Shown here in pieces: positions 1 through 62,518 of a stretch of DNA of 64,000 nucleotides. Made by a program: the position numbers and the translations under genes. The stretch lies in the NCBI GenBank assembly GCA_015665455.1, contig JADFAD010000003.1:62001-126000 (forward strand), read 5' to 3'. The stretch is from Oceanospirillaceae bacterium. Lineage in GTDB: Bacteria > Pseudomonadota > Gammaproteobacteria > Pseudomonadales > Litoribrevibacteraceae. A model generated the notes under the pieces. It saw nothing but the letters and a program-made list of their open reading frames with translations. It searched no databases and was not told the origin of the DNA. Position 1 is the first letter of the stretch. Each line of letters begins with the position of its first letter.

Positions 1-3000
1 TACGAGATACCGCACGCCTGACTACACTGTTCATACTTTTTCTAAAACTGATCTGGTATCTGGCGTGTCCCCAAGTATAAATATCTTCCATGAGAACCTG
101 ATTTGAACGGCGCACATAGACGTTGGTTGAACCACAGGTGTTGCTGCTTGTGAAACTGCATTCAGCCATTCTTCCTGAGTCGGATGCCCCCATATCAATC
201 AACTTCATGTGTTGGACGTTACTGATAAAAATCCCTGTTTGCAGTGAGTTATTTACATGAATACCTCTGAATGAAATGTATTCAAGAGGGTTGGCGCCCA
301 CGTATTGCTCAGGCCAATCCGGGTTAATCCAATTGCCTGTTACCCTAAATACGGAACCGTTTTTGCCTTCACCGTCCAAAATTACTTTTCCGGGATTCTC
401 GGCAATGACGGTGGTAAAGTGTTGTTCGTCGCCAGAAGGTGGGAGTGAACCGCCTGCAAAATTATTGATGAAGTCTGACTCTTCGCCACGGTACACGCCA
501 TCCCTGATAATCAAAGTACCACCAGGGATAAGGGCATCCAGACCATCGGCCACGGTGTTATAAGGCTCATTTTCTCCTACATAGATGATTTGTGGTACAT
601 CGCCAACTGTGACAATCCAAGTTTCGATGGTTGAAGAACCATCTGGCGCGGTTGCTTTCACGCCAAAATGCATGCTTTCACTGGCCATGTCCGAAGGTAC
701 ATCCCATTGGTAGCTACCTGTAGCCGGATCAACTGTTGCTTCATCAGGCCCGTATTCTTTCGTCCAAACGACATTTAAGGCACTCAGTTGTGTGGGTTGA
801 TAGTGGTAGAAGGTATTCGTATCAATGGATTGATCATTAACGTGTTGGATTTTTACAACAGAAGTGACTTCTGGCGCGGTTGAAACGCTATGCGATGAAG
901 ATAAGGCTGAAATTTGATTGGCATCGCCATAAGCAGCCACTTGATAATGGTAGGTTTGATCTGCTGTCAGGTTGACATCTTCATAGTGGGTTGAAGAGGT
1001 TCTGGCTATCTCAACGTTATCTCGATAGACGATATAGCCAAGTAAATTAGAGGTGTCTGTGGGCGCATCCCATTCAAGACCTATGGACGTTGCCGTAACA
1101 CTCGAAGTTTCCAGTGCAGAAGGCGCTGAAGGAGCAGAGGCGGGTAGCGTTAGGGTAGTTACTGTCAATGTTGGTGTGGGTTCCGATTCATTTCCTTCCG
1201 TAGTATGGGATGTCACTTTGTATTGATAGTTCATGTCCGCTTCAAGACTTGCGTCGGTAAAACTTAGGTTGTTTGTTCGCCCAACTTCTAGGTCGTCGCG
1301 ATAGATAACGTACCCGATGATGTCATCATTAATTGATGACGCTTCCCAATTCAGTTGCGTTGAACCGTGGGTCGTATTGGATGCACTTAGATGAACAGGA
1401 GGGGACAATAATTCCGGTGATACAATGCCCGATTGACTGTTACTGGTTAACCAATCGAAGTCCCAATTTCCACTTTCGGCCTGCAGGGTTATGTGGCTGT
1501 CTTCAGGGGTTGCAGGTAGGTTTTCAAGCGGGTGACTGACCATGAGCTCTTCACCACGATAGATCAAGAGATGTTCATCTTCGATATTTAATGTGATGGT
1601 TTGCCACGTATTTTCGTCAATCAGTAAGCCGTATCCGTTTCCTGAGTAATATTGTGTGTCATAACCTGCACGAACAATCTTAAAGAAACCGGAGCTGCTG
1701 CCTTTCATGATGAGTGAATAGGTGTGTTGGTTCTTTTCCCCGTTGGGTCCCGTGAATAAGTGGAATTGGAGTGTGGCATAACTGGGTGTGCCAGCAGCGG
1801 GCTTGGCCCTGAATCTTACCGTCGCGTTGAAATCTGACACAAGAGGTTGTTTGCTTATGAGTTCATTCTCAACACTTGAGGTTAACGTGAGTATACTGTT
1901 TTGATTAAGGTGAGACTCAGCATGGGTCCACTGGGTCAGGTCATCAAACTCTTCTCTGTAATGGTTGCCCGCCGTGGCGATGGCATCTAAATCCCAATTT
2001 CCGCTGTCTGCTTGTAATGTAAGGTAGTGGCCTGTTGGTTCAGACGGAAAATTATCTAATTCAAGTTCATTCACCAATTCATTATCACGCCAAAGCTTAA
2101 ACTGGCCATTAACAATAGCGACCTCAATGTCGTGCCATGTTTCATCATTTGAAAGTAGCCCATCTTGGTAGCCAGACCAATACACTGTGTCGTAACCGGC
2201 TCTGGATATTTTATAACCTGAGGCTTCATTGCCTTTTATGGTGAGTTCGTAGCTGTGGGCAGTGTTTGACCCATCTTCCGTTGTGAACAGTTTGACTCTT
2301 AACGTTGCATAATTCGGTGTGCCGGTTGAGGGCTTGATACGGAAATACAGCCTTGCAGGTTTTTCAGTGTGCGTAGACTCTGCATCAAACACAGGCAGCT
2401 TAGTCGTTAGGGCATCACCACTGCCTTGAGATAAGGTTAATATGCCTTCTGTAATTTGGTGGTTTCCGCCTTGCCAGTGGTCTAAATGATTAAATGGGTC
2501 GACCCAATCCATCAATGAGAGGTCTTGAGTGGTTACTTCGATTGGCGTTGTTGGTTCATCAATGGGTGTTTCTACGGTTTCATCTGAGGTGTGGACTTGA
2601 AACCAATCAAAATCCCAATTGCCACTCTCTGCTTTAATGGTTATGTTTGATCCTTTAGGCGTATCTGGCAGGGTGTCTATCGATACCGTGTCGATGAGAG
2701 CCCCATCATTAAGCACGGTGATGCTTGAGTGAGTTATTTGAAGTTCTACTTCGTGCCACGTTGAATCATCAGTAAATAATCCACCGCCTTGGCCTGCGTA
2801 GTGAACGGTGTCATAACCGGCTCGAACAATTTTATACCCCTCGCTTCGACCGCCACTCAACACGATTGAATAGCTTTCGTTATTAATGCTGCCCGTTGAG
2901 GAAGTGAAGAAATGTACTTGAAGTGCCGCATAGCCTGGCGTTCCGGATGCGGGTTTGGCTTTGAATTTTAACGTGACAGGTCGGGTAGAGAGAGGGTTGT

Positions 3001-3211
3001 TGGTTGTATTAATTGAGTTGCCGTCTTTGCTGGTAACGGTGAAAATTCCGTTGTTTAATTCGTGGGCTCCTCCTTCCCAGAAATCCAGATTATCATAAGT
3101 TTCTGCCCAAGCTTGAGCGTTCGCGGTTGAACTGAACCCCATGAGTAAACATAAAGTAATTAATAACTGATTCATCTTACATTGATTGTAATATTTTCGT
3201 GGATGGGGCAT
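1..3211 (-). CDS. Large secreted multidomain beta-rich protein (partial, C-terminus off window)
   Basis: An open minus-strand frame of about 1070 codons runs off the left edge. I place the start at 3211 because the leader reads GAGGAAG five bases before that ATG; a second in-frame ATG at 3175 lacks this. The N-terminus has basic residues then a hydrophobic stretch ending ANAQA, a signal peptide. Three related repeats of about 160 residues follow (roughly 36-205, 240-405 and 415-585), each with an AGYDT core and closing on a GNWDFDW or GNWDLD motif; they look like concanavalin-type beta-sandwiches. Then come two fibronectin type III domains (about 600-690 and 690-780), a cadherin-like segment (about 783-870), and the start of a right-handed beta-helix with the phrase PGGTLIIRDGVYRG. 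This resembles secreted polysaccharide-binding or polysaccharide-degrading proteins. No catalytic residues can be assigned because the C-terminus is missing. Confidence 0.85.
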   Translation of the reverse strand, partial: MPHPRKYYNQCKMNQLLITLCLLMGFSSTANAQAWAETYDNLDFWEGGAHELNNGIFTVTSKDGNSINTTNNPLSTRPVTLKFKAKPASGTPGYAALQVHFFTSSTGSINNESYSIVLSGGRSEGYKIVRAGYDTVHYAGQGGGLFTDDSTWHEVELQITHSSITVLNDGALIDTVSIDTLPDTPKGSNITIKAESGNWDFDWFQVHTSDETVETPIDEPTTPIEVTTQDLSLMDWVDPFNHLDHWQGGNHQITEGILTLSQGSGDALTTKLPVFDAESTHTEKPARLYFRIKPSTGTPNYATLRVKLFTTEDGSNTAHSYELTIKGNEASGYKISRAGYDTVYWSGYQDGLLSNDETWHDIEVAIVNGQFKLWRDNELVNELELDNFPSEPTGHYLTLQADSGNWDLDAIATAGNHYREEFDDLTQWTHAESHLNQNSILTLTSSVENELISKQPLVSDFNATVRFRAKPAAGTPSYATLQFHLFTGPNGEKNQHTYSLIMKGSSSGFFKIVRAGYDTQYYSGNGYGLLIDENTWQTITLNIEDEHLLIYRGEELMVSHPLENLPATPEDSHITLQAESGNWDFDWLTSNSQSGIVSPELLSPPVHLSASNTTHGSTQLNWEASSINDDIIGYVIYRDDLEVGRTNNLSFTDASLEADMNYQYKVTSHTTEGNESEPTPTLTVTTLTLPASAPSAPSALETSSVTATSIGLEWDAPTDTSNLLGYIVYRDNVEIARTSSTHYEDVNLTADQTYHYQVAAYGDANQISALSSSHSVSTAPEVTSVVKIQHVNDQSIDTNTFYHYQPTQLSALNVVWTKEYGPDEATVDPATGSYQWDVPSDMASESMHFGVKATAPDGSSTIETWIVTVGDVPQIIYVGENEPYNTVADGLDALIPGGTLIIRDGVYRGEESDFINNFAGGSLPPSGDEQHFTTVIAENPGKVILDGEGKNGSVFRVTGNWINPDWPEQYVGANPLEYISFRGIHVNNSLQTGIFISNVQHMKLIDMGASDSGRMAECSFTSSNTCGSTNVYVRRSNQVLMEDIYTWGHARYQISFRKSMNSVVRRAVSR

Positions 3212-3433
3212 GTGAACTTCCTCGTTGTTCATTGATGTTGTAACCCTAGACAAGATTTTCTGCGCTGATTGTGCACCATATCTCATTTATAAGACGATTC
3301 AAGTATTGTTTTTAATGTTTTGATTTTATTACAGAATGTACTATTGTGATGAGGTTCGTGTTTCTTGATTGATATGTCAATTTAATACAGTTCTTAAGTA
3401 TTAGTTCGTACACTTGGTTAGGTGGTACTCGCT

Positions 3434-3681: not shown

Positions 3682-4887
3682 TTAAGCGCTCTCTGGAGGA
3701 ACTTCGGTTATTAATGTTTCAGATTTGATTTCTGAAAAGGGGATGTGAAGTATGAATGTCGTTCCTTCACCTTGTTTACTGACGCAGTTTATTTTTCCAT
3801 TCAGGGCTTCAACCGTATTTTGTATGATGGCCATTCCCAACTTTTGCTGAGATCCACTCGATGTGGATTTGTAAAATGGGTTGAAAATCTGACTTACTTG
3901 CGTCTCCGACATGCCCCAGCCGTCATCTGAATATCGAAAAAGCAGAGAGTCGTTTGTTTCCTTGATAATGCTCAGTTCAATAGTTCCTTCTTCTGATCCT
4001 GAAAATCCATGATAAACAGAGTTGGATACCAAATTAGTCACTATGTTAATAATGGCGCTTGGCCTGATTTGAATGATCAAATCTTCTGGACAATCAAAAG
4101 TTACGTTAAATCTAGACATCTCAAATTTTAGTTCCAATGAGCAGAATAGGTCTTGAATGTAATCATACAAATTTATTGAGTATTTTTGACGGGGCTCTTG
4201 TGAATCCCCGATGTGTTTAAACCGCTCAATAATATCAACGCATCGATGCAAGTTATCTAAAGCGTTATTGCAGTCCGTTGTTAGTTGCTTATTTATGATT
4301 GCGCCTTTTAGTTCGTCTACGCCGACTTTAAGCCCTCTTTGTATTTGGAGGGATTGATCGAGGGCGTATTTTAGGGGGGAATTCAATTCATTCGCTAAAT
4401 TCGTTACGAAACTGTTAAGAGAGGCCAAGCGCTCAGACTCAAGAACTTGGTTCTGTGCCAAACGTAATTTCTCTAAGGACTCTTGAAGGGCTTGGTTTTT
4501 TCGCTCTAATCGAGAAGGGCTTGGTAAGCGAACGAAAAAGGGAATCACAAGCCAAATGGCTGTACCGGCAAATATAGAAACGACTGCTGTCACTGCTTTT
4601 ACTACGGCTGAAATGCCGTAGATGGGTTCCCAAATAACTATTGCGGTTATTAAATGGCCCGTTCCACAGGAACCAAAAACAAAAATACCAATTAAGCGGA
4701 AAAACCAAGGGTAAGCAATGTCTTTCCTTTGTTTAATAAATACAATAATAGCGATCATAATAGAGTAGTAACCTATAGCTGTTACTACATCAGAAATGAC
4801 AGAGGTCCAGAGAATATCTGGTTGCCATAAATAGCACATACCATGCGGCATGAACTGTTCGTAATCGAAGAAGGATGTATCGTTCAT
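3682..4887 (-). CDS. Ethylene-receptor-like membrane histidine kinase homologue lacking the phospho-acceptor His
   Basis: The 401-residue protein begins with about 115 residues of membrane segments resembling the ethylene-binding domain of ETR1 and cyanobacterial relatives. It keeps Asp33 in a VISD context, Tyr40, and the Cys74-x3-His78 pair (motif SCGTGHL), at the spacing of the copper-binding Cys65/His69 of ETR1. A coiled linker (about 125-155) leads to a HisKA-like segment. The H-box reads LANELNSPL, so Asn166 stands where the phosphorylated His should be; the codon is AAT. The ATPase domain keeps its N-box (NLVSNS), DDGWGMS, an F-box (IFNPFYKS) and a G2-like LGMAII. It is seen to be a pseudokinase or a kinase phosphorylated elsewhere. 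No response regulator adjoins it. Ethylene or copper binding is inferred from motif spacing only. Confidence 0.8.
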   Translation of the reverse strand: MNDTSFFDYEQFMPHGMCYLWQPDILWTSVISDVVTAIGYYSIMIAIIVFIKQRKDIAYPWFFRLIGIFVFGSCGTGHLITAIVIWEPIYGISAVVKAVTAVVSIFAGTAIWLVIPFFVRLPSPSRLERKNQALQESLEKLRLAQNQVLESERLASLNSFVTNLANELNSPLKYALDQSLQIQRGLKVGVDELKGAIINKQLTTDCNNALDNLHRCVDIIERFKHIGDSQEPRQKYSINLYDYIQDLFCSLELKFEMSRFNVTFDCPEDLIIQIRPSAIINIVTNLVSNSVYHGFSGSEEGTIELSIIKETNDSLLFRYSDDGWGMSETQVSQIFNPFYKSTSSGSQQKLGMAIIQNTVEALNGKINCVSKQGEGTTFILHIPFSEIKSETLITEVPPESA

Positions 4888-5024: not shown

Positions 5025-5315
5025 ATGCTAAAAATGAAGGTATCGGAACTTAAAAATTTAGCCGAAAAATCAGAGGGTCAGTTGTCAGAAATTGGTATTC
5101 ACACTGCTGAGGATCTTCGGGAGTTGGGCTCTGTTGAAGCCTATGTTCGATTGAAAGGGCATTATAAAAAGGCGATCAGTTTAAATTTCCTATATGCAAT
5201 GGAAGCTGCGCTACGTAACGTTCATTGGCGAGAAATAACCAAACAAGACAAGTTAACGTTACAAACTGAGGTTGAAGCAATGGTGGAGTTGTACCAACAG
5301 TTTTCAAAAATCTAG
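5025..5315 (+). CDS. TfoX C-terminal-domain protein
   Basis: This 96-residue protein consists only of the helix-hairpin-helix-like C-terminal domain of the TfoX/Sxy family. The phrases LSEIGIHTAEDLRELGSVEAY and YAMEAALRNVHW are typical of the family. Stand-alone copies of this domain are common in marine gammaproteobacteria; full-length TfoX (about 200 residues) promotes competence and CRP-dependent transcription, but a role here is unknown. The start is uncertain: an AAAGG at 5017-5021 sits only 3 bases before ATG 5025 and 12 before ATG 5034. The gene converges on the DUF4124 gene with a 9-base gap. Confidence 0.8.
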   Translation: MLKMKVSELKNLAEKSEGQLSEIGIHTAEDLRELGSVEAYVRLKGHYKKAISLNFLYAMEAALRNVHWREITKQDKLTLQTEVEAMVELYQQFSKI

Positions 5316-5324
5316 ATTATGCTT

Positions 5325-5657
5325 TTAATATTTTTTTGTTGAACTTGGTGCTGAACGTCTAGGGTATATTTTTTGTTTTTTCGTTTGTGTAGCGGGCTTG
5401 TTGGTTGGTTTTTGCTGAGAAGAGCTTATAGCTTCATGTATCTCTTTATCTCCTTTTAAGTTCTGAATTGGTCTGGTTTCCTTTCCTGAGGCTACTTTAA
5501 TCTCTATCTTTTTAGCGTTAACACCTAATGGCGGCCGATCTCCAAAACTGACCTTCCCCGTGTCATCGACCCACTTGAAGACTTCTGAGTAAACAAATGG
5601 TGTATTAATGATAGAAAGTGCCGAAATTAGAATCAAAACGGGTTTCAGGGTAGACAT
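5325..5657 (-). CDS. Secreted DUF4124-domain protein
   Basis: The 110-residue product has an N-terminal signal peptide (hydrophobic run ending near VYSE) and then the DUF4124 signature EVFKWVDDTGKVSFGDRPP. The rest is a basic, Ser/Thr/Lys-rich tail with low complexity (about residues 60-110). DUF4124 proteins are small periplasmic or envelope proteins of proteobacteria with no agreed function. A second protein of related style lies at 19715-20194. Confidence 0.8.
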   Translation of the reverse strand: MSTLKPVLILISALSIINTPFVYSEVFKWVDDTGKVSFGDRPPLGVNAKKIEIKVASGKETRPIQNLKGDKEIHEAISSSQQKPTNKPATQTKKQKIYPRRSAPSSTKKY

Positions 5658-34253: not shown

Positions 34254-35582
34254 TTATTTAATGCTATCCGTGTTTACTATGATCCTTAGCTTGCACTCTT
34301 CTATCTTTTCAATGGTGACAAGTTGTTCGATATTCTTTTCCGTGATTGTCCTTCCTTTGGATATCAAAAGAATTCCGAAATTATTTACTATGTCTTTAGA
34401 GACAACCATTCCTGGGTGAAGGGCCATAACATCCATAGCGGATTCGTTGGGGGACAAACTGCATAAATCATATTTATCTAGAATCTTATGTAAAATATTA
34501 ATAAGCTTAAGTTCGTAAGTTGATCCTGCTCTGCTTTTTATATGAGCGAATGCTTGATTAGCATCACGCGGTGTATTCTCAATTAATCCCAATTGTAACC
34601 CGATGAAATCGCGAGAGATTCTTAGGATTTTAGCTCCGTAGCTTATTTCCCCACGACAAAGCTTCTTTGGAAATCCAGAACCGTCTAAATTCTCCAAATG
34701 TTCGGTAATAAATTGACTGCATGACTCAAGCCCTTTGATATTAATCAGAATAGAAGCACCTCTTGATGGGTACTTTATGTATTCTTTTTGTTGCTCTTTG
34801 GTCAGTGACGCCTCAGAGCATGCAAGGACTTCATCTTGTAATGTTATTTTCCCTAATTCATGAAGTAGTCCTGCATAAAGAACTTGTTGAATTATGGGTT
34901 TTGGTAAATCACATAGCGTAGCAATCTCACTGGCTAATTCAGCGACAACGGTTGGTTTTTGCAGTTCCACCCTAAATCGGCTTGAGACCACGCTGGAGAA
35001 AACTCGAACAAAAATATCGTAACTGTCTATTAGTTCAGTATAGGATTGGTCGAGTAAGTTCATTGTACGACTTAGCTCTTCAGTACGTTGTTGTACCTTC
35101 TCTTCCAGTTCTGAATTAAATGACTTTAACTTCTTGTTTTGTCTATGAGTTAAAAGTAATAACTTATGTTTATCTCTTTCTAATCGTTTAACTTTTAAAG
35201 CCTCTTCAATGCTGTGTTTTAAGTCTTCATCCTCCCAAGGTTTACTGATATAGCGATAAATCCCCCCTTTGTTGAGTGCAGTTATCGTGGATGCAATATC
35301 TGAATGACCCGTTAACAAAATACTTTTTATTTCAGGGTATTTTTGTCGTGCCTGGGTTAAGAACTCAGCACCATCCATATGAGGCATTCTCATGTCAGAG
35401 ACGATCAGGTCAATGTCTTGCTCTTCAAGCATTTTAAGGCCATCAATACCGCTTTCTGCAAAGTGACAGGTAAATGATGCTTTTTTAAAGAGCCGCTTTA
35501 GCGCCCGTAAAATTTGAGGTTCATCATCAACAAACAAGACGCTGTCTTGTATCTTGTTAATGCTCGGTACTGCAATGCTCAT
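34254..35582 (-). CDS. Response regulator with a degenerate HD-GYP domain
   Basis: The 442-residue protein has a receiver domain (Asp63 in IVSDMRMPHMDG; residues 15-130), a coiled coil (about 140-180) and a C-terminal HD-GYP-like domain (about 200-360). Key residues are altered: the HD pair is His241-Glu242 in LLHELGK, the later HHE motif is reduced to EHLEN, GYP is GFP (303-305), and the His expected after the helix reads YPSRG. It keeps the fold but probably not the c-di-GMP phosphodiesterase metal site. The start overlaps the end of the preceding sensor kinase gene by 26 bases, indicating a coupled kinase-regulator pair. Confidence 0.85.
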   Translation of the reverse strand: MSIAVPSINKIQDSVLFVDDEPQILRALKRLFKKASFTCHFAESGIDGLKMLEEQDIDLIVSDMRMPHMDGAEFLTQARQKYPEIKSILLTGHSDIASTITALNKGGIYRYISKPWEDEDLKHSIEEALKVKRLERDKHKLLLLTHRQNKKLKSFNSELEEKVQQRTEELSRTMNLLDQSYTELIDSYDIFVRVFSSVVSSRFRVELQKPTVVAELASEIATLCDLPKPIIQQVLYAGLLHELGKITLQDEVLACSEASLTKEQQKEYIKYPSRGASILINIKGLESCSQFITEHLENLDGSGFPKKLCRGEISYGAKILRISRDFIGLQLGLIENTPRDANQAFAHIKSRAGSTYELKLINILHKILDKYDLCSLSPNESAMDVMALHPGMVVSKDIVNNFGILLISKGRTITEKNIEQLVTIEKIEECKLRIIVNTDSIK

Positions 35583-37374
35583 GTTCGTCTTCTTCTGGTT
35601 GCCGCGTTGGTAGAATGGTGGTAAATGTTGTGCCGAAACCTTCTTTGCTGTTTACCTTGATCGTGCCGTGGTGCCTTTGAATTATTCCATACGAAAGGGA
35701 CAGGCCTAGCCCCGTTCCTTTACCTACTGGTTTTGTAGTGAAAAATGGATCAAAGATCTTTTTTAAGTGCTCATCATCAATGCCGTGTCCCGTATCAGAA
35801 ATAGAAAATAAGACTCGATCATCTTTTATTTTTTCGGTTTTTATTGTGATTGTTCCGCGTTCGTCAATGGCATGAGCCGCGTTAACAATAAAGTTAAGGA
35901 CGACTTGTCCAATCTGTGACTCAACGATTTCAATTTCTGGTAGTTCAGCAAAATCGGTCTTGACCTCAATTTTGTATTTGATTTCGTTATGAGCAATATT
36001 TAATGCTTTTGTGATTGGATTGTGAAGATCGCATAAAACAATGTGTCCAGCGTCAGTTCGGGAGAAATCTTTCAGATCATTAACAATATTTCGGACTCTT
36101 GTTATACCGTCATTGGCATCTTCAAGTAACTCAGGTAAATCTTCATTTAGTTCTTCTAAATCAATGTCTCCAAGGATATTGTTAAAGTAAGGAATGATGG
36201 ATTGATCCGGATGAACTTCAAGTTTCTGACGAAACGCTTTGAGAGTATCTAACAGGGTCTGGCTATATTCACCCAAAACAGAAATATTAGTTTTTACATA
36301 CCCAATAGGGTTATTAATCTCGTGGGCAACACCAGCTGCGAGTTGTCCAATGGACGCCATTTTTTCTGATTGAAGAAGTTGTTCTTGTGCTTCTTGGAGC
36401 TGTTGGATCAATTCTTTCTGTGTTTCTTGTTCATGCTTTAACGCTTTATTTGAACGAGCAAGTGCGCGCATTAAACTGTTTTTATCTAAACCCATGAAAA
36501 CCGAAGAAATCACTTGTTCTATATAGACTTGGTCTGTAATGCTGTAAGGCGTTTTTCTTCCTGGCTTTGTCATCAAGATAATTACTTTTCTATTTCTTGC
36601 AGCGCTTTCGGCAGGCCCCATCAAAATGTGATCATGAAGTTCGTTTGTTTGTTCGTCTTTCGTTTGATAAACATTGTTTTCAAGAATGTATGTGTCAATT
36701 GAGTCTAGGCTATGACCTTTTTCTTTAAGTTTTTTTAATATTGGTTTCAGTTCACTTTGTTCACAGCCTTTACATGCACTGTACTCACTTTTCTTTTCTA
36801 CCAAAATGGCGCCTTGGCTTGAGTTACTTATGATCATCAATCGAGTCAACAAATCATAATAAAGTGCACGGTCTTCTTTATTGATGTTTTTTGTCCATTC
36901 AATACATTCTGACCAAATGACTTGATAGCGCATGTGTGTCTGCAGTTCTTGAAGTTCACTATTTGTTTGAGTGAGTCTCCTTTTAAAGCCTAATGATTGG
37001 GTCAATAAATGCGAAGGAAGTTTGTACTGTTCAGGTAATTCTTTTTCAGAATTACTCAGAAGCATAAAGATAGAGTCTTCGTATTCTGTAATTTTAATGG
37101 CGTAAATGTGGGTGTAAAGCTTCTGATCTTCATATGTGAATTCTGAATGAGTCCATACATTCACTTTAAAATTATTCTGTGCGTGTTCGAAGAAATAGAA
37201 AGGAGCAATGTCTGTTATTCCCTCTGACGTATCGGAATACAATGCATTTTCTATGGAGGGTTCAAAATCAGAATTATGCCAAAACCAAGCAATCCCGAAC
37301 CCAACTAGGTCCGACTTAAGTGAATCAAAAACTTCAACAAAGGATTGATCTACACATGATTTTCGCATGCTCAT
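35557..37374 (-). CDS. Soluble sensor histidine kinase with GAF-like domain
   Basis: A 605-residue kinase without clear membrane segments. The N-terminal 150 residues look like a divergent sensor domain, followed by a GAF-like region (about 165-310) with a CKGC pair, a coiled coil (about 315-345), and a HisKA domain with [17 protein letters not shown]. The ATPase domain shows [20 protein letters not shown] and [14 protein letters not shown]. All kinase motifs are intact. The partner is the overlapping response regulator downstream. The CxxC might bind a metal or sense redox state, which is an inference. Confidence 0.9.
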
Positions 37375-61288: not shown

Positions 61289-62518
61289 ATGGATTTTTCA
61301 GCGTCAGCTTCAGGTCAAGAAGTCCTTAATAAACTGAAAACGTTTATGAAAGAAGAGGTTCTTCCCATTGAAGAAAAGTACTTCTCAGACCTGCGCAAAT
61401 TAGATAACAAGTGGGTCGTGTTACCAATAATTAATGAGCTTAAGAACAAAGCAAAACAACAGGGGCTCTGGAACCTATTTTTACCTAATTCATCTTACGG
61501 CGCGGGCATTTCTAATTCAGATTACGCATTGATGGCAGAGGAGATGGGCAGAAGCTTTATTGCTCCAGAAATTTTCAATTGCAATGCGCCCGATACTGGC
61601 AATATGGAAGTTCTTGTTCACTATGGGTCAGAAGAACAAAAAGAAGAGTGGTTAACTCCACTACTATCCGGGGAAATTCGCTCCGCTTTCTGCATGACTG
61701 AACCTGAAGTTGCTTCTTCAGATGCAACTAATATGGAAGCAACGGCGCTGATTGACGGCGACGAGGTTGTGTTAAATGGTAGTAAATGGTGGAGCACTGG
61801 GATAGGACACCCAGATTGTAAAATTTTAATTTTTATGGGGCTTACTTACCCTGACGGACCTAAACATGCGAAACACTCAATGGTACTTGTTCCGATGGAC
61901 TCGGAGGGAGTAAACGTTGAACGAATGCTCCCTGTTTTTGGTGAATACGACGAACCTTATGGGCATGGTGAAATCAGCTTCACCAATGTACGTTTACCTA
62001 AAAGCTCTATAATTGCCGGACCAGGAAGAGGCTTTGAAATCGCCCAAGGTCGACTTGGGCCCGGAAGAATTCATCATTGCATGAGGGCCATTGGTGCTGC
62101 AGAACGCACGTTATCATTACTTATAGATCGTGCTGTCTCACGTGAAGCGTTTGGTAAACCCATTGCCAACCTTGGAGGCAATAGAGACATCATTGCGAAT
62201 GCTCGAATTTCAATTGAGCAAGCCCGTTTGTTAACGTTAAAGGCTGCTTGGTTACTCGATACTAAAGGCATTATGGGTGCCATGAGTGAAGTGTCTCAAA
62301 TCAAAATAGTTGTTCCAAATATGTTGCAAGCCATTGCTGATCAGGCAATACAAATTCATGGCGGTGCTGGCGTTAGCGAAGACTTTCCGTTAACAGCTCT
62401 CTTTGCTTACGCGAGATGCTTACGTCTTGCTGATGGCCCAGATGAAGTCCATCGAGGTTTGGTAGCGAAAATAGAACTGCAAAAATACAATAAAAAAATT
62501 AAGGAGCAAGCAAAATGA
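61289..62518 (+). CDS. Acyl-CoA dehydrogenase (ACAD10/11-like)
   Basis: A 409-residue acyl-CoA dehydrogenase. Family motifs are FCMTEPEVASSDATN, GHGEISFTNVRLP, GPGRIHHCMRAIGAAERTL and a C-terminal GGAGVSEDFPLTALFAYAR with LRLADGPDEVHRG. The latter motif points to the ACAD10/11 group, whose members act on 4-hydroxyacyl or other substituted chains with an adjoining kinase. The start follows GAGGAA. It overlaps the SDR gene by four bases (ATGA). Confidence 0.92.
   Translation: MDFSASASGQEVLNKLKTFMKEEVLPIEEKYFSDLRKLDNKWVVLPIINELKNKAKQQGLWNLFLPNSSYGAGISNSDYALMAEEMGRSFIAPEIFNCNAPDTGNMEVLVHYGSEEQKEEWLTPLLSGEIRSAFCMTEPEVASSDATNMEATALIDGDEVVLNGSKWWSTGIGHPDCKILIFMGLTYPDGPKHAKHSMVLVPMDSEGVNVERMLPVFGEYDEPYGHGEISFTNVRLPKSSIIAGPGRGFEIAQGRLGPGRIHHCMRAIGAAERTLSLLIDRAVSREAFGKPIANLGGNRDIIANARISIEQARLLTLKAAWLLDTKGIMGAMSEVSQIKIVVPNMLQAIADQAIQIHGGAGVSEDFPLTALFAYARCLRLADGPDEVHRGLVAKIELQKYNKKIKEQAK

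Follow-up and report, generated by a model that had tools for sequence, protein, structure and literature searches.

A candidate receptor pseudokinase with an ETR1-type membrane domain in an Oceanospirillaceae bacterium, and degenerate transmitters among short bacterial receptors

The stretch of DNA considered here (the window, 64,000 nucleotides) covers positions 62,001 to 126,000 of contig JADFAD010000003.1 in assembly GCA_015665455.1, from an Oceanospirillaceae bacterium. At 3682..4887 on its minus strand lies an intact open reading frame of 401 codons, read from 4887 down to a stop codon at 3684-3682. The protein of 401 amino acids (aa) consists of an ethylene-binding domain (EBD), a coiled linker, a DHp helix hairpin, and an ATPase (CA) domain; the features given below all lie on the same strand. 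A preliminary description of this DNA had called it an ethylene-receptor-like membrane protein that has lost its phospho-acceptor histidine. The open frame, the ligand residues, and the substituted histidine all hold, whereas the statement that every ATPase motif is present fails at one of them, the G2 box. We argue that the gene probably encodes a membrane receptor pseudokinase that would signal by contact with a partner kinase or regulator.

Residues 25-120 (4528..4815) form the EBD, with three membrane helices. The proposed ethylene-binding domain is recognized far above chance by the Pfam profile ETR1_N (PF25487), at 84.5 bits against a cut-off of 27 (E 6.2e-24), and this is the only match to that profile in the source genome. 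A structure model, used for helix boundaries only (mean pLDDT 65.1, pTM 0.37), places the helices of the membrane domain at 23-53, 60-83, and 91-119. The spacing of the ETR1 ligand residues is exactly as first reported: Asp33 (4789..4791), Tyr40 (4768..4770), Cys74 (4666..4668), and His78 (4654..4656) are the equivalents of ETR1 Asp25, Tyr32, the copper ligand Cys65, and His69. To these we add Lys97 (4597..4599), by our own placing the putative equivalent of Lys91, a residue of receptor output. PMC11819568 describes the roles of ETR1 Cys65, Asp25, His69, and Lys91, and gives seven residues as needed for binding. All five positions are invariant in the alignment.

The rest of the Pfam scan returned HATPase_c together with a weak second HATPase model; it gave no HisKA row at E up to 1, and no GAF, receiver, or PAS domain. 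The DHp hairpin (residues 150-235, 4183..4440), heavily altered in the alignment, is predicted by the structure model as two long helices, 124-187 and 195-228. Both the codon and the alignment column place Asn166 (AAT, 4390..4392) where the phospho-acceptor His belongs. Glu167 is kept, and the Thr170 position still bears a hydroxyl (Ser). The His residues of the protein are at 15, 78, 214, 225, 293, and 381, with none between 78 and 214 and thus no substitute in the first DHp helix. Phosphotransfer through a nearby His in that helix is rejected, as there is no such His, and the claim of a lost acceptor stands. A wider version, in which the Asn is tolerated and phosphotransfer runs through another His of the protein, might draw on His214 and His225 in the second DHp helix, but these lie outside the H-box helix, both positions vary among ten close relatives (described below), and the G2 box is damaged as well. 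We consider it very improbable.

The ATPase domain (residues 277-385, 3733..4059; HATPase_c, 71.5 bits) keeps its N box (N285/N289), G1 box (DDGWGM), and F box (NPFY). Its G2 box (residues 346-351, SQQKLG, 3835..3852) is damaged, reading SQQKLGM in the window protein versus xGLG[LM], with Gly at 346 and 349, in the ten relatives. Three CA residues that are invariant in those relatives are changed here (G346S, G349K, and T340K), so that of the four motifs first listed as intact only N, G1, and F remain. Because the phospho-acceptor His is now Asn and the ATP lid with its G2 box is damaged, histidine kinase activity appears to have been lost; judging from the chemistry, we hold catalytic inactivity as a histidine kinase to be close to certain. 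The best 50 of 661 Foldseek matches to the structure model are mostly histidine kinase transmitters, the DivL protein among them, and hold nothing informative on the membrane domain. Elsewhere in the source genome, the His is present in 59 of 59 proteins matched by the HisKA profile (including L166, whose H box, upstream of the matched stretch, was read separately), a count to be read knowing that scans with this profile lean towards His-keeping proteins and that the window protein itself falls below the profile threshold.

A scan of the genome collection yielded 13 loci, ten of which (L002-L011) match over the full length or nearly so; L012, a distant EBD kinase with His, matches in the EBD part only, and L013-L014 in the transmitter part only. 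The ten relatives, whose record titles name Colwellia, Bermanella, Oleispira, an Oceanospirillaceae/Nitrincolaceae metagenome-assembled genome (MAG), and a Pseudomonadales MAG, are 41-47% identical to the window protein in the scan and 40-46% over the alignment. Their H box reads AHE[LI]NTP in ten of ten, the His never being lost. Asn166 as a trait of the subfamily is thereby rejected, and the question first left open, whether close homologues share the Asn, is answered in the negative.

The differences from these relatives are unevenly spread. Identity to the ten is 64% in the EBD, 62% in the linker, 19% in the DHp, and 34% in the CA domain, versus 73%, 62.5%, 37.5%, and 38.5% for L011 compared with the other nine. 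Residues invariant in the ten are changed in the window protein at 7 of 60 positions in the EBD, 1 of 9 in the linker, 7 of 16 in the DHp (counted over residues 158-235: G158N, G163N, H166N, T170S, G173K, T177D, and A227G), and 3 of 23 in the CA domain (counted over residues 236-385). As read from this alignment, the decay is selective and concentrated in the phosphotransfer machinery, which is neither the mark of a lone base error nor that of uniform decay; the clustering therefore argues against both a base error and a plain pseudogene. A base or assembly error at the one codon would take a single base (CAT to AAT), but the same gene also departs from the invariant residues at six more DHp positions and at three in the CA domain, and the assembly is recorded with a completeness of 100% and a contamination of 0.46%. 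A single base error at codon 166 is rejected on these clustered changes, and the chance that we give to any such error is negligible.

The kept sensor, linker, helices, and ATPase fold therefore fit a pseudokinase that signals by contact, and this is the reading we favor, with a probability of about 0.62. Its input would be an ETR1-type membrane domain with a Cu(I) site, and ethylene or some other small molecule as its ligand. The cytoplasmic part would no longer be a histidine kinase; its DHp helices and ATPase fold would act on a partner by pairing with it, activating it, inhibiting it, or sequestering it. That partner might be a kinase of the related HExNTPxG class that keeps its His, or an RR-DUF3369-HD response regulator. 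These two are our first guesses because the nearest transmitters within the source genome are HExNTPxG kinases, two of the three RR-DUF3369-HD genes in that genome adjoin His-keeping HExNTPxG kinases, and an RR-DUF3369-HD gene adjoins L009 and L010, two of the ten relatives. The neighbors of most relatives were judged by reading and not by Pfam, and two of the stretches (L003 and L011) start close to the end of a contig; we put the partner forward as a tentative choice. That the window copy is itself functional seems to us quite likely, and that its ligand is ethylene or copper an even bet. The preliminary description had already suggested a pseudokinase, or a protein acting through another partner, and this remains the best supported account given the selective loss and the parallel in family f23 (below), though with an ATPase domain that is not fully intact.

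Several points weigh against this reading, both as to function and as to ligand. No second carrier of Asn166 was found among the relatives, and selection on the window copy is therefore not measurable; possibly the His was lost recently and the gene is dying. No response regulator or partner gene is seen adjoining the window gene, and a DUF3369 regulator is missing from the listed stretch for eight of the ten relatives. On the ligand side, Ile35, Pro36, and Ile62 complete the ETR1 binding list. The Ile35 equivalent is kept (I43), the Pro36 equivalent is Met44 in the window protein and Thr in the ten His-bearing relatives, and the Ile62 equivalent is Phe71, with Phe in all eleven proteins. The whole subfamily (the window protein with L002-L011) thus departs from ETR1 at the Pro36 and Ile62 positions; ethylene binding is therefore not to be assumed, and the ligand may not be ethylene. 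The proposed ethylene or copper link accordingly holds for the Asp, Tyr, Cys, and His set and for Lys97, and does not extend to these two sites. A simple-pattern tally at the second site across the 98 EBD proteins collected for this study gave 72 with Ile-Cys-His, 13 with Phe-Cys-His, 6 with other residues, and 7 unmatched.

Anyone giving these points full weight might see a gene in decay, that is, a once-active ethylene-domain kinase that has lost its catalytic residues and is on its way out. It is found in one genome, its DHp has drifted to the 19% identity given above, it has no adjoining partner gene, and the one other genome sampled from the same family has no EBD match. Uniform decay, however, would hardly leave all 401 codons open with 53 of 60 EBD and 20 of 23 CA invariant residues in place, and in family f23 the His-less versions are strongly constrained; we consider decay unlikely. 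A different possibility is that the protein is still an enzyme, only not a histidine kinase: a phosphatase acting on a regulator that another kinase phosphorylates, a docking site on such a regulator, or else a Ser/Thr kinase, as has been proposed for plant subfamily-2 receptors. The kept Glu167 and the hydroxyl at the Thr170 position would suit this possibility, and PMC3611092 reports Ser/Thr kinase activity for tobacco NTHK1. Yet T170S and the drift of the DHp surface count against a cognate phosphatase having been preserved, and the G2 damage counts against any ATP-driven activity, which leaves this alternative with a small chance.

A parallel that bears on a contact-signaling pseudokinase comes from a wider search, in which the first 135 residues of the window protein were compared with 390 genomes of the order and matched in 49, the window's genome included. 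In the family that we label f23 (two genera; L091-L111), an EBD protein is present in 21 of 21 genomes. Its H column holds His in nine proteins, Arg in seven, Glu in three, Tyr in one, and Asp in one, and the N, G1, and G2 boxes are still recognizable in these proteins; an Arg-bearing member even reached the HisKA profile, at 29.4 bits. One f23 genome keeps His in 29 of its 30 HisKA matches, the exception being the EBD protein. A single common loss of His in f23 is rejected: two-state parsimony needs two changes, and the tree with one His-less clade fails the approximately unbiased (AU) test at p 0.0114, a value that is indicative only, since the group was defined after the alignment had been seen. 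The alignment and trees thus point to at least two losses of His within f23.

Several synonymous codons encode the replacements (CGT, CGG, CGA, and AGA for the seven Arg; GAA and GAG for the three Glu), and the replacing residue is therefore held. The ratio of nonsynonymous to synonymous substitution rates (dN/dS) in the DHp of His-less pairs is 0.021 (Arg), 0.053 (Glu), and 0.055 (Arg, with dS saturated), and is undefined for a fourth pair (Arg); two His pairs gave 0.049 and 0.085. The His-less helix domains of f23 are under purifying selection, with dN/dS of 0.02-0.06 in three pairs. Different forms also occupy one shared locus, where DoxX, a sigma factor, a protein of 77-88 residues with Cys pairs, and the EBD protein lie together with a GMC-type oxidoreductase nearby. 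The forms found there are Arg (L203 and L204), His (L205), Glu (L208), Asp (L209), and Tyr (L210). Pfam was run at L205 only, where it matched DoxX, Sigma70, and Acyltransferase and left the small protein unmatched; the other loci were matched by reading. The neighborhood is partly conserved around a second Glu locus (L214) and is absent from the other His loci that were read (L206, L207, and L213).

Family f35 shows the reverse damage. An EBD protein scores above the cut-off in 7 of 81 genomes, and five full transmitters from three genera are readable (L016/L079, L229, L230, L233, and L234), L231 and L232 ending early near contig ends. The H box is a perfect AHELNTP in all five, the N-box Asn is replaced by Phe, Tyr, or Arg in all five, and DxGxG is kept in none; L233 and L230 were positive for G1 by a rough regular expression, but the aligned G1 box is broken and we relied on the alignment. 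Between L229 and L230, dN/dS is 0.121 in the CA domain and 0.044 in the EBD, the DHp being saturated at synonymous sites. They mirror the window protein and may serve as phosphotransfer or phosphatase devices.

In family f71, all four genomes have an EBD protein. Two of these (L236 and L237) carry GGDEF, and neither an H box nor ATPase boxes were found in L081 (by Pfam) or L238 (by reading). The region after the EBD gives a dN/dS of 0.30 between these last two at saturated dS, so constraint there is weak or unclear. The L081 gene (L212:4481-5695) lies 21 bases behind a gene for a single-domain receiver and two kinase genes.

The set of 98 EBD proteins is not a random sample, as f23 was taken whole. 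It comprises 81 with a readable HisKA-type transmitter, two of HWE/HisKA_2 type, seven with GGDEF, four with the EBD alone, one degenerate (L081), two others, and one unread. Among the 81 readable H columns, 68 hold His and 13 do not (seven Arg, three Glu, one Tyr, one Asp, and one Asn). By a hand count that takes in further f35 and f71 proteins, 20 of the 47 short EBD-transmitter proteins (<=425 aa) are degenerate, namely the window protein, 12 from f23, five from f35, and two from f71; none of the 40 longer ones with a readable site has lost its His, although their ATPase part often lies beyond the stretch read. Left out of the counts were L017 (no EBD frame), L012 (the distant EBD kinase with His), L084 (weak, short EBD), duplicate loci of one gene, and L085-L088 and L198 (no EBD by our profile); the short-form count further omits L062, L190, L231, and L232, whose frame ends before a complete ATPase part, and L074, which has no transmitter. 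Breakages are counted as separate across families because the kinds of damage differ, which would make about five: the window protein, at least two in f23, and one each in f35 and f71. Four proteins of 164-198 aa (L046, L058, L077, and L218) are made of an EBD and a tail, and no output domain was seen in them.

A close known parallel is in plants. According to PMC3611092, the kinase domains of plant subfamily-2 receptors have diverged, EIN4 keeping its His and the others not. Like these receptors (ETR2, ERS2, and EIN4), the window protein joins an ETR1-type membrane domain to a transmitter without its essential residues; plant members have lost different residues, according to the same paper, and the bacterial sets split similarly. 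Unlike them, it has neither GAF nor receiver domain in the Pfam scan, no additional membrane helix at the N terminus in the structure model, whose confidence is moderate, a bacterial host, and no known CTR1-type target. It also resembles SynEtr1 of Synechocystis and AzoEtr1 of Azospirillum, bacterial EBD receptors with a transmitter. AzoEtr1 agrees with the window protein at the Asp, Cys, His, and Lys positions, and SynEtr1 signals by kinase activity (both from PMC11819568). SynEtr1 is described as a phosphorelay sensor. AzoEtr1 has a PAS domain and SynEtr1 both PAS and GAF (PMC11819568 and PMC6682694, the latter also treating bacterial ethylene receptors); in the window protein, the His and part of G2 are gone. 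Bacterial EBD proteins have a wide range of output domains, as PMC7700396 states. No report of a bacterial EBD pseudokinase was found in the open-access literature searched, which is weak evidence of absence, the subscription literature lying mostly outside that search.

Two other bacterial kinases are instructive. DivL of Caulobacter, which matches the window protein both by sequence (E 0.00052) and by fold, is likewise a HisKA/HATPase transmitter without a phospho-acceptor His. It has Tyr at that position, carries PAS domains, and controls CckA; it reportedly offers a precedent for a pseudokinase. The window protein differs in having Asn and no PAS, DivL lacks an EBD, and we claim no orthology. 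ChrS of Corynebacterium glutamicum is comparable in that, though inactive as a kinase, it works together with an active paralogue. According to PMC9491836, its pseudokinase form acts by way of cross-phosphorylation by HrrS, and a two-hybrid assay showed ChrS-HrrS heterodimers. Unlike the window protein, that form is a laboratory-evolved CA frameshift and not a natural loss of His, and ChrS is a heme sensor.

The surroundings of the window gene are as first described in having no adjoining response regulator. Its neighbors are a divergent TfoX_C gene (5025-5315, plus strand), a DUF4124 gene (5325-5657, minus strand), and a large gene with fibronectin III that lies 395 bases downstream (2-3286, minus strand). 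This last gene runs off the window and has fibronectin type III repeats and a weak match to a rhamnogalacturonan-lyase domain (28.1 bits against a cut-off of 27.8). Farther along, at 34254-37374 on the minus strand, the genes for a sensor kinase whose H box is intact and for a response regulator overlap; the output domain of the latter is HD-like by reading of the sequence. In Colwellia, a protein of 184-195 aa with the motif SLCGCPVIFE is encoded near the EBD kinase (L004:5278-5832, L006:5209-5763, and L007:8554-9141); the L006 copy (184 aa) has no Pfam match.

How ethylene receptors could signal without acting as histidine kinases has long been asked in plants, where the kinase domains of subfamily 2 have diverged. 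With about five apparently separate breakages of the transmitter, that question becomes testable in small, genetically simple bacterial proteins, and the f23 series, with His, Arg, Glu, Tyr, or Asp at one site and a shared locus, is well suited to residue swaps. The window gene alone is a modest curiosity; it is the repeated, two-directional loss across bacterial receptors that is of interest. It is about an even question whether short-form bacterial EBD receptors have repeatedly been uncoupled from phosphotransfer and kept so by selection, as counterparts of subfamily 2 that signal by contact. Such uncoupling would have run in several ways: the His lost and the ATPase kept, the His kept and the ATPase dead, or both lost. 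If this is true, signaling by ethylene or copper without phosphotransfer is not a plant invention, and the form with its His kept and its ATPase dead would be a ligand-gated phosphotransfer or phosphatase device.
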